A stretch of 44,830 nt of DNA. Origin: Sphingobacteriia bacterium. GTDB taxonomy: Bacteria; Bacteroidota; Bacteroidia; Bacteroidales; 4484-276. Shown piece after piece: positions 4,408 to 11,184 of this stretch (the stretch's first letter is position 1; each line of letters begins with the position of its first letter). The DNA lies in the NCBI GenBank assembly GCA_009930115.1, contig RZYY01000009.1:1-44830 (forward strand). Direction: 5' to 3'. The notes beneath the pieces were generated by a model. That model worked only from the letters and a program-made list of their open reading frames with translations. It did not search any database and was not told the origin of the DNA. A program made the position numbers and the translations under genes.

Positions 4408-4447
4408 AAAATCAGACCTGACCCTTACATGTCAGGTCTGATTTTTT
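4408..4447 (+). terminator. strong Rho-independent terminator-like hairpin after serA
   Basis: Perfect 15-bp arms AAAATCAGACCTGAC / GTCAGGTCTGATTTT with an 8-nt loop (CCTTACAT), followed by T residues. Confidence 0.85.
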
Positions 4448-7337: not shown

Positions 7338-8204
7338 TCATAAACTACCTGGTTTCCCTGCCTCTTCACTGATTTGATTTCTTATCCGAAAGGAGGTCTG
7401 AAGACTCTTTCCAATTTTTGCCAAAAAAAACAGCAGAACAAGGAAAAAAATGATACTGGCACCTGAAGGAATATCAAAATAATAGGAAAGAAAAAGCCCT
7501 GAAAAACTGCCAATCAAACCGATAACAATAGCAAGCAGGATTATTCTTTCAAATTTTTTAGTAAAAATATTGGCTATGGTTTGAGGAATGGTCAACAGGG
7601 AAATCACCAGAATAATCCCGACAACACGAATGTTCAGAACAATGGTCAGTGCTACAAGCGTTATCATCATATAATTGACAAATTTGACAGGAAGTCTTGC
7701 AGCACGGGCATATTGTTCATCAAAAGCAACGAAGAGAATAGTTTTGTACATATACAAAAAAACAACAATAATAATCACCGAAAGCACAACCAGCAAAAAG
7801 AGGTTAAGTCGGGTTACAGTGAGAATATTACCGAATAAAAAACTCATCAGATTTGCAGAATAACCGGGAGTGAGAAAAACAAAAATAATTCCTACCGCCA
7901 TTCCAAAAGACCAAAGCATAGCAATGACAGAATCCTCCCTGACATTGGTTTTTCTGGTCATAAACTCGATACCAAGTGCCGAAAGGACACTAAAGATCAT
8001 GGCACCTAAGATTGGATTAAACCCAAAATAATATCCAATACCAATTCCACCAAACGAAGCATGTGTAATCCCTCCACTAATGAAGACGATGCGTTTGGAC
8101 ACTATGTAAGTACCTACAATCCCACAAGCGATACTGGAAAGCACTGCTGCCAGTGACGCATTAATAAAAAACTGATAATTGAAAAGCTGTAAAAAATTTT
8201 CCAT
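7338..8204 (-). CDS. znuB: metal (zinc) ABC transporter permease
   Basis: ABC-3 family: GTYIVSKRIVFISGGITHASFGGIGIGYYFGFNP, multiple TM helices, operonic with the ATPase and binding protein. Confidence 0.9.
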   Translation of the reverse strand: MENFLQLFNYQFFINASLAAVLSSIACGIVGTYIVSKRIVFISGGITHASFGGIGIGYYFGFNPILGAMIFSVLSALGIEFMTRKTNVREDSVIAMLWSFGMAVGIIFVFLTPGYSANLMSFLFGNILTVTRLNLFLLVVLSVIIIVVFLYMYKTILFVAFDEQYARAARLPVKFVNYMMITLVALTIVLNIRVVGIILVISLLTIPQTIANIFTKKFERIILLAIVIGLIGSFSGLFLSYYFDIPSGASIIFFLVLLFFLAKIGKSLQTSFRIRNQISEEAGKPGSL

Positions 8205-8210
8205 TCTCTG

Positions 8211-8966
8211 TTAATTATGTTTTTTTAAGACAGTATGAGGAATATCACCATGGGCAATAATTTGTATCGGGCAGTTATATTCAGCCAGTTGTTCCTGACT
8301 GATAGTATTGGATTCATGGTAGTGCAATTCGCGATTGACACAGGCGATGGTTTTGACATAGTAAGTAATGGTTCCGACATCATGCGATACCATCATAACA
8401 GCCATTTGTTGATTCAGTTCGTTGAGTTTGTTGTAAAGATCATTTTCAAATTTGTTGTCCACAAAAGAGTTGGGTTCATCAAGAATAAGCAACCTGGGTC
8501 TGGCTACAATAGCCCTGCATAGAAAGACCCGTTGCATTTGTCCTCCTGAAAGCTCTCCGATATTTTTCTTCGCCAGGTGACCAATACCCATTTCAGCCAG
8601 AATTTCTTGAGCCTTTTCAACCTGCTCTTTGTTAAAATGATTGACCAACTTATGATGTTTTGCCAGCCCGGACAAAACTACATTGAGCACACTGATTGGA
8701 AATACCCGGTCAGTATTGCTTATTTGTGGCAGATATCCGATCAGTCGCTGATTGTTATCCGAAAAATTATTATGGTGATAGATAATTTTCCCAGACAGTG
8801 GTTTGATCAAACCTATAATAATTTTCACCAGAGTGGTTTTCCCACCTCCATTTGGTCCGATCACGCCAATAAAATCTCCATCATTGATGGTCAGATTTAC
8901 ATGATGAAGAATAATCTCATCATCATACCCGGCATTAACAGATTGCAGCTCAATAATTTTTCCCAT
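8211..8966 (-). CDS. znuC: metal (zinc) ABC transporter ATP-binding protein
   Basis: Walker A GPNGGGKTT, signature LSGGQMQRVFLCRA, Walker B LLILDEPNSFVD. Confidence 0.93.
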   Translation of the reverse strand: MGKIIELQSVNAGYDDEIILHHVNLTINDGDFIGVIGPNGGGKTTLVKIIIGLIKPLSGKIIYHHNNFSDNNQRLIGYLPQISNTDRVFPISVLNVVLSGLAKHHKLVNHFNKEQVEKAQEILAEMGIGHLAKKNIGELSGGQMQRVFLCRAIVARPRLLILDEPNSFVDNKFENDLYNKLNELNQQMAVMMVSHDVGTITYYVKTIACVNRELHYHESNTISQEQLAEYNCPIQIIAHGDIPHTVLKKHN

Positions 8967-8973
8967 TGCTTAC

Positions 8974-10170
8974 TTACTTATTTGAAGATTGTATCAGATT
9001 GGCAATCTTGAGCAAATTCTCATCCCAATTCTCAGCCAGCGGATCAATCTGGACAACTTCTCCGTTGATCTCTTCGGCTACAATTCTGGCATTTTCTTTA
9101 TCAAATTCCTTTTGAATAAATACCACCTTTGCAGCATCCTCACGAGCAAGGTCTATCATATTTTTTAGCTGAAAGGGGGTTGGTTCTTTGCCTTCCTGCT
9201 CAATCGAAATTTGTTGTAAGCCATAATCTCTGGCAAAATATCCCAATGCAGGATGATAAATTATAAATTTTCGATTTTTCATGCCTGTAAACATCTTCTC
9301 GAGTTTCTGGTCGAGTAGATTTAACTCTTTGCTGAAATTATCATAATTCATTAGAAATGTGTCTTTGTGATCCGGGAAATACTCAGTTAGTGTTTTAGTA
9401 ATGTTGGCAGCAATTATCATCCCATTCCGCACCGATAACCAGGTGTGAGGATCAACCCCTTTGCTTTCGTATTGATACCCTTCATGATCATGGTCATCTC
9501 CGGAAATTAGTTCGATTCCAGCAGTCATTTGCACCAGATTAATGTCCGGATAATTGTTTTTGATAACTGGCAGAAAATGATTTTCAAAAGTAAGTTGCCC
9601 ATTATAAAAATAAACAGATGTTTTCTCGATATTCTGCATTTGTCGGGGCGATGGATCATAAGCATGGTGGTTAGCACCCGGAGGTATAAGCACTTCAACG
9701 TGAACCAGATCACCACCAATTTTTTCAACAAAATATTTGTTGGGTAAAATGCTTACTAAAATCTGAATTTTCTCATTTACGGGTTTTTGTTTTCGGGAGC
9801 AAGCGCTCAAAGAGAACAACATTAAACTAAGAAAAAGCAGAGTAAAGGCTGAAATTCCATGTTTTAACCGATCGCTGGTTTTTAATTTTTCTTTCATTTT
9901 ATATTTCTTTTTAAGGTCAATTTTTTTCAATAAGATAAGCGGCACGGGATCAAACCCTGATGTACCCCAGGGATGACATCTCAAAATCCGGTTCATCGCA
10001 AGTTTACCTCCGATAACAGGTCCATGCAGCTTTATGGCTGTTGTGGTGTATTCCGAACAAGTAGGGATATGCCGGCATGATGCAGGGGTCAGCGGCGAAA
10101 TCATCGTTTGATAAATCCTTACAGGGAAAATAAGAAGATTTGTTCCAAGTTTTCTTATTACTTTTTTCAT
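8974..10170 (-). CDS. in-frame fusion: N-terminal YidD (membrane insertion efficiency factor) plus C-terminal ZnuA-type zinc-binding lipoprotein
   Basis: YidD part: IYQTMISPLTPASCRHIPTCSEYTTTAI…RCHPWGTSGFDPVP. From Met at 9897: signal peptide with lipobox LSAC, then ILVSILPNKYFVEKIGG…PPGANHHAYDPSPRQM (ZnuA). No stop between the two halves. Confidence 0.88.
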   Translation of the reverse strand: MKKVIRKLGTNLLIFPVRIYQTMISPLTPASCRHIPTCSEYTTTAIKLHGPVIGGKLAMNRILRCHPWGTSGFDPVPLILLKKIDLKKKYKMKEKLKTSDRLKHGISAFTLLFLSLMLFSLSACSRKQKPVNEKIQILVSILPNKYFVEKIGGDLVHVEVLIPPGANHHAYDPSPRQMQNIEKTSVYFYNGQLTFENHFLPVIKNNYPDINLVQMTAGIELISGDDHDHEGYQYESKGVDPHTWLSVRNGMIIAANITKTLTEYFPDHKDTFLMNYDNFSKELNLLDQKLEKMFTGMKNRKFIIYHPALGYFARDYGLQQISIEQEGKEPTPFQLKNMIDLAREDAAKVVFIQKEFDKENARIVAEEINGEVVQIDPLAENWDENLLKIANLIQSSNK

Positions 10171-10186
10171 TTTACACTAAAGGTTA

Positions 10187-10597
10187 CTATTTGCCATCGA
10201 ATTCCACAAAGTTTCGCTCGGTCTCGTAAAGCACGATGGACAATTCGAATTTTGGATCAATTTTCTTCCTCAAAATATTCCAGATTCGGATGGCAATGTT
10301 TTCTGCACTGGGGTTCAGGTCAGCAAAATCATCAACATCAAGATAAAGATTTTTATGATCATAACGATCTTCAATATTTTCCTTTACAAGATCTTTCAAC
10401 ACCTTCATGTCCATCACATATCCTGTTTCAGGATCAACATCTCCTTTTACTTTCACGATGAGATTGTAATTATGTCCATGATAGTTCGGATTGTTGCATG
10501 AACCAAATACTTTTTCATTTTTATCATCATCCCAGTTGGGGTTATGCAAACGGTGGGTAGCATTGAAATGCGTCTGACGACAAGCTGTAACTTTCAT
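10187..10597 (-). CDS. queD: 6-carboxytetrahydropterin synthase / 6-pyruvoyl-tetrahydropterin synthase family
   Basis: FNATHRLHN, CNNPNYHGHNYNLIVKVKG, YVMDMKVLKDLV, YDHKNLYLD, YETERNFVEF. Confidence 0.9.
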   Translation of the reverse strand: MKVTACRQTHFNATHRLHNPNWDDDKNEKVFGSCNNPNYHGHNYNLIVKVKGDVDPETGYVMDMKVLKDLVKENIEDRYDHKNLYLDVDDFADLNPSAENIAIRIWNILRKKIDPKFELSIVLYETERNFVEFDGK

Positions 10598-10610: not shown

Positions 10611-11057
10611 TTAATGATTTAATAATTGATTACCCGACAATTTTGCTTTTTTACTGCATGCATTGCAAAGACCAAAAATCACATAATTGGTTTCGAGTTT
10701 CACAAAACCCTCAGGCAGTTCAACAGGTATAACCGGATAATTGTGCAAACACTTAACCACATTGCATCTCACACATTTAAAATGAATGTGCTCGATTTCA
10801 TTTTCACCTGTACCATTATTACGTTCCGGCAGCACATATTTTGATTCGTGATTATCCACAAAAATCTGATGCACAATTCCCTTTTCAACAAAGGCTTTAA
10901 GGTTTCGGTATAAAGTCACCCTGTCACATTCGGTATTTAATTGAAAGCTAAGCTCAGCAGGCGATAATGCCACCTCACTTTTAAGCATCAGATTGAGCAA
11001 TTCAAGTCTGATGCGGGTAATGCTCAGGTTGTGCTCTTTTAGCAGTTTGGCCGGCAA
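10611..11057 (-). CDS. Fur-family transcriptional regulator (probable Zur); TTG start at 11057 proposed instead of the ORF-track start at 11267
   Basis: LLKEHNLSITRIRLELLNLMLKSE…LSFQLNTECDRVTLYRNLKAFVEKGIVHQI…HIHFKCVRCNVVKCL…GLCNACSKK (two CxxC). A -7 box lies downstream of the ATG at 11096, so the start must be downstream of it. Confidence 0.85.
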   Translation of the reverse strand: MPAKLLKEHNLSITRIRLELLNLMLKSEVALSPAELSFQLNTECDRVTLYRNLKAFVEKGIVHQIFVDNHESKYVLPERNNGTGENEIEHIHFKCVRCNVVKCLHNYPVIPVELPEGFVKLETNYVIFGLCNACSKKAKLSGNQLLNH

Positions 11058-11065
11058 TATATCTG

Positions 11066-11090
11066 ATTTTTGCAACACGGTTGCAAAAAT
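11066..11090 (-). promoter_or_regulatory. palindromic operator overlapping a -7 box (TATTTTTG, 11084-11091) for the zinc operon; candidate Zur box
   Basis: + strand ATTTTTGCAAC-ACG-GTTGCAAAAAT: perfect 11-bp arms, 3-bp centre, immediately upstream of the Fur-family gene. Confidence 0.7.
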
Positions 11091-11184
11091 ACACATTATT
11101 TTGATAACAAAAAATATCTGAAAAAAATTTTTGATGTTTTCAGCAGAATCAGCTTTTTTAACAAAATGAAGAATCAGGCAGATT

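Follow-up and report, generated by a model that had tools for sequence, protein, structure and literature searches.

Background

The Zur proteins described in Proteobacteria, Firmicutes and Actinobacteria (e.g. E. coli Zur, PDB 4mtd) have a Fur-family fold with two CxxC pairs, and they act on a palindromic site on the znuABC promoter, with autoregulation where zur itself is located in the znu operon (PMC6103462). Among their targets, TonB receptors are common (PMC6103462), COG0523 genes are linked to Zur sites, and paralogues of HisI and QueD are predicted targets (PMC2770081). In Bacteroidota, PgFur of Porphyromonas gingivalis and other Fur homologues also carry CxxC motifs; for PgFur a non-canonical function and no zinc box have been reported (PMC6613475). 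The open-access Zur reviews consulted make no mention of Bacteroidota or of the box sequence described here.

The locus analysed here, from a Sphingobacteriia bacterium, shares with these systems the Fur-family fold, the two CxxC pairs, the palindromic site on a znuABC promoter and the regulator gene within the operon. Known Zur boxes are AT-rich, unlike TTGCAAC-N3-GTTGCAA, and the present site differs from them also in being fused to the -7 box of Bacteroidota. By "the window" we mean the whole stretch of 44,830 nucleotides that was analysed, of which the following features are used below.

7338-8204, minus strand: ZnuB-type permease (Pfam ABC-3, 5.2e-75; best NCBIfam match AztB, under cut-off)
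8211-8966, minus strand: ZnuC-type ATPase (Pfam ABC_tran; best NCBIfam match AztA, under cut-off)
8974-10170, minus strand: YidD domain followed by a ZnuA-type metal-binding lipoprotein in one frame (Pfam YidD 4e-26, ZnuA 1.5e-64)
10187-10597, minus strand: QueD-like (PTPS family) protein (Pfam PTPS 6.2e-32; under the NCBIfam QueD cut-off)
10611-11057, minus strand: Fur-family regulator, proposed Zur (Pfam FUR 3.7e-9; alignment and clade; AlphaFold/Foldseek)
11066-11090, no strand: palindrome, proposed operator or Zur box (sequence; kept beside homologous fur genes)
11084-11091, minus strand: -7 promoter element TATTTTTG (sequence; TAHHTTTG consensus, PMC6847099)
11108-11111, minus strand: TTTG, weak candidate -33 element (sequence; 16-nt spacer to the -7 box, element weak in the phylum)

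Results

Palindrome, promoter and operon

At 11066-11090 the window reads ATTTTTGCAAC-ACG-GTTGCAAAAAT, a 25-letter palindrome with 11-bp arms and a 3-nt spacer in which the core TTGCAAC-N3-GTTGCAA occupies 11070-11086. The minus strand from 11090 to 11066 is ATTTTTGCAAC-CGT-GTTGCAAAAAT, and as all 11 of 11 arm positions match, the perfect 25-bp palindrome on a promoter claimed by the original prediction is borne out. The same prediction had placed the -7 box within the palindrome, and indeed TATTTTTG overlaps the upstream half-site, which contains the TTTG of the box. When tested against the motif of the Bacteroidota primary sigma factor, TATTTTTG fits TAHHTTTG and neither H position is G. Since the G of TAHHTTTG lies at -5 in F. 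johnsoniae (PMC6847099), the spacing gives a predicted +1 at 11079, 1 base away from the dyad centre at 11078. It may be noted that the -33 element, for which only the weak TTTG candidate is seen, is poorly conserved in the phylum and weak or absent in the F. johnsoniae data (PMC6847099). In Markov simulations of the window, 0.2-0.27 perfect palindromes per window are expected with arms of at least 11 bp and a spacer of 0-8, and arms of this length with a spacer of exactly 3 occurred in 0 of 30 first-order simulations.

The palindrome heads five minus-strand genes (fur-like, queD-like, yidD-znuA, znuC and znuB); their ORF coordinates give gaps of 13, 16, 7 and 6 nt in order along the operon, in agreement with the earlier description of five ORFs 6-16 nt apart. 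The position of the ATG at 11096, upstream of the -7 box, was likewise confirmed. A start at TTG 11057 is plausible for the fur-like gene, because over its full length the protein then aligns with homologues in which the ATG comes after the homologue's own box; the predicted 5′ UTR would be 22 nt. ZnuA, ABC-3 permease and ATPase are encoded together, which is the layout of a ZnuABC importer, and the best NCBIfam transporter matches are to the zinc system AztABC, all NCBIfam zinc-transporter models being matched under cut-off. A second PTPS/QueD-family gene is present in the genome at C66:8779-9192, so that the QueD-like protein exists in two copies, and the operon copy would fit a spare for zinc starvation.

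YidD and ZnuA form a single open frame of 398 aa (8974-10170; L262). The frame is likewise continuous in G073, a genome of the same family, and the fusion is therefore not an assembly error. Also, yidD adjoins znuA in three other genomes (G051, G007 and G056), and in L215-L217 it follows MerC-like genes that have this same box. The link of YidD with zinc is thus recurrent.

The regulator and its clade

The window protein scores above the Pfam FUR cut-off, with the winged helix and dimerisation domain of the family, and its AlphaFold model (pLDDT 90) matches Fur-family proteins in the PDB. The best TM-scores, taken by query length, include E. coli Zur with zinc and DNA (0.64-0.66) as well as V. 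cholerae Fur (0.63), and the metal can therefore not be read from the fold by itself; the Foldseek matches extend equally to structures of Zur, Fur, PerR and Mur. In the alignment (whose numbering is used here) the two CxxC pairs of the structural zinc site are C95/C98 and C131/C134, and the HxH pair is kept. In contrast to E. coli Zur, an extra Cys stands at the position of the metal-site Glu (E111 by alignment), and such a ligand replacement would favour zinc. The NCBIfam Zur model PRK11639 gives 30.5 bits against a cut-off of 167 and no Fur-family model reaches its cut-off, but these models are narrow (E. coli-type), which bears on the naming of the protein and not on its function.

The protein falls in a Bacteroidota clade apart from classical Fur (58 rows, support 99/99), and the signature C-x2-C-x4-C is present in 113 of the 116 proteins collected. 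The classical Fur of this genome (C76:13642) also belongs to the Fur family, but it has neither of the CxxC pairs nor the third Cys and lies on a separate branch; a box-like site near it falls inside the upstream gene. The three znu-linked proteins group together with weak support (51/44), the pair of window and G051 having 92/93, and the efflux-linked proteins described below form one branch (97/99).

Box and regulator across the order

A relative of the Fur-like protein was found in 44 of 119 genomes of the order and ZnuA homologues in 47 of 118. All three fur-carrying znu operons found (window, G051 and G029) have the exact core TTGCAAC-N3-GTTGCAA. In G051 the order is fur, an unannotated gene, yidD, znuA, znuC, znuB and in G029 it is fur, znuA, znuC, znuB, with the exact box at the fur start in both. 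Of the 29 fur-less znu loci read, which include that of G073, none has the box at ≤1 mismatch. G073 keeps queD-yidD-znuA-znuC-znuB; neither fur nor box is present in the 126 nt of contig upstream, and no Fur homologue is detectable elsewhere in the genome. No common alternative motif was found upstream of the fur-less operons, and the majority of znu operons in the order are without the box. On dividing 118 genomes by the Fur subfamily, the box is found in 20 of 43 genomes with it vs 8 of 75 without (p=2.6e-5, a value that ignores kinship, almost every genome being of a different family). The exact box occurs in seven genomes and all seven have the Fur. Within the order, the box as read from these genomes is a companion of the regulator and not a general znuABC signal. 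The Zur-box reading of the original prediction is supported, with this one refinement. Flavobacterial relatives of the Fur protein (L049-L125) are mostly without the box at ≤2 mismatches; in at least two of them (L049 and L085) a diverged TGCACTTCxGTTGCA lies immediately behind fur and ahead of additional genes, the next in L085 being a long ORF.

The palindrome also folds well as RNA (-11.5 kcal/mol, z -4.25), as a leader hairpin, attenuator or terminator would. We reject such a role as very improbable: with the predicted start at mid-palindrome, a leader would contain just one half, the palindrome is joined to the -7 element, and the relatives conserve the sequence of both half-sites and not merely their pairing.

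Promoter-fused sites in the phylum

The motif was also searched without reference to any gene, using the promoter-fused probe TAnnTTTGCAACnnnGTTGCA with the reversed pattern as control. Exact sites numbered 16 in 396 genomes of the phylum and 50 in 295 genomes of the class, the two samples overlapping in some genomes. The reversed pattern, an imperfect control whose composition differs (it holds CpG), had 0 matches in both samples, and by base count alone roughly one chance match is estimated for the larger sample. Near fur genes, 15 sites have TAnnTTTG directed at the controlled gene and one, where it is present on both sides, has it in the opposite direction; in 14 of 14 discordant sites the -7 box aims at the target gene (p=1.2e-4). 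By this sequence evidence the box is a promoter-fused putative operator. A chance palindrome in AT-rich DNA finds its one argument in the other long palindrome of the window, a longer perfect inverted repeat at 4408-4445 with 15-bp arms and an 8-nt loop that is possibly a terminator. Against this, the present palindrome is rare in simulations, it recurs exactly beside homologous genes in other families and the reversed pattern is without matches, so that chance is contradicted by conservation and has a negligible probability.

For 40 sites the first two downstream genes and the divergent neighbours were read by a Pfam scan. The domains are FUR (10 divergent genes), MerC (11), cobW/COG0523 (7), DUF4625 (5), TonB plug (4) and, more rarely, YidD (3), FolE (2) and ZIP (2), and PRA-CH/HisI is divergent from two COG0523 sites. 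Non-random matches were the outcome of the test named in the original prediction, namely whether motif hits are random with respect to metal genes: they track the Fur subfamily together with genes linked to zinc. Under the box, DUF4625 lipoproteins and TonB-dependent receptors are found repeatedly (L183, L188, L191, L195, L213, L214, L226 and L231), which suggests an outer-membrane zinc-uptake system; DUF4625 has no mention in the literature searched.

Uptake and efflux under the same box

Three arrangements are seen. The box lies before fur-znu, or before fur-TonB receptor-DUF4625 or fur-COG0523 (L183, L188, L191 and L193), or directly after fur and before metal-efflux genes. In the present genome, 27 sites are found at ≤2 mismatches, of which 24 are in genes and two adjoin the two non-classical fur genes; the remaining one is asymmetric and lies before trigger factor, where a small and probably spurious ORF overlaps it. 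At ≤3 mismatches the 51 matches vs 31 in the control are mostly noise. For COG0523 this genome gives only weak GTPase-type matches, and no second zinc gene was found under the box.

The second of the two fur genes is a paralogue at C7:3887-4300 (locus C7:1-4300, L140), with a near-identical box TTTGCAATAGTGTTGCA at C7:3868-3884 before an efflux operon that encodes a Metal_resist-like protein, a DUF302 protein and two Cation_efflux proteins. The same putative operator is thus present on uptake and efflux genes within one genome. This paralogue and the efflux branch share with the window protein the clade, the C-x2-C-x4-C signature and the box, the difference being that their box lies after fur and before efflux genes instead of before fur-znu. 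For other members of this arrangement the assignment comes from unannotated ORFs, which look like RND and CDF pumps. Tentatively, and at somewhat less than even odds, one Fur clade with one promoter-fused operator may serve opposite tasks, one branch repressing uptake at high zinc and its sister branch controlling efflux.

The near-identical TTTGCAATAGTGTTGCA would also allow the site to be a target of the C7 paralogue, or common to both proteins, with the znu operon cross-regulated. This appears improbable, as G051 and G029 have the exact box at the start of the linked fur, G073 is without both gene and box in its contig upstream, and the efflux branch forms its own clade, in which the right flank differs.

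Discussion

We consider the palindrome to be the operator of the Fur-family protein encoded downstream, a Zur of a Bacteroidota-specific clade that would repress the operon at high zinc, and place the probability of this reading at about 0.78. The sequence itself shows the palindrome, its overlap with the promoter, the layout of the genes, the linkage of the box with the regulator and the association with zinc genes; DNA binding, zinc as the ligand, repression and the start site are what we infer from it. At high zinc, a zinc-loaded dimer would bind TTGCAAC-N3-GTTGCAA and, as the half-site contains the -7 TTTG and the predicted start is at the dyad centre, would block RNA polymerase, turning off fur-queD-yidD-znuA-znuC-znuB with the regulator's own gene included. 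At low zinc the protein would be released, and the ZnuABC importer and the spare QueD-like enzyme would be made. The simplest reading would be that a metal-loaded dimer represses transcription sterically at the core promoter. Since the same box is present before efflux operons of the sister branch, the box may respond to more than zinc starvation.

An unlikely alternative, though the least unlikely of its kind, keeps operator and Fur-like autoregulation but has the protein respond to Mn, to Fe or to heavy metals more broadly. The metal is not fixed by the family names of the transporters, Mn and Fe are also possible substrates of the ZnuABC type, structures of Zur, Fur, PerR and Mur are matched without distinction, and the sister branch is on heavy-metal efflux clusters. 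The genes beside the box argue otherwise, COG0523, ZIP, FolE and HisI being hallmarks of zinc regulons (PMC2770081), and the Cys at the metal-site Glu position would favour zinc as well. The reading as a Zur operator is preferred, and the box is very probably a zinc switch of Bacteroidota.

No description of the box was found in the open-access papers searched, and its novelty as a Bacteroidota zinc box is provisional. Bacteroidota dominate the gut and many environments, yet they are absent from the Zur reviews searched. If the double use on uptake and efflux is true, the metal logic would have to be inverted or otherwise different, and cross-talk may be possible. With a defined box and a recognisable regulator clade, zinc regulons could be identified from genome sequences, and testable functions would be suggested for the DUF4625, MerC-like and YidD genes found repeatedly at the box. 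The box would also provide Bacteroidota genetics with a compact promoter tunable by zinc.
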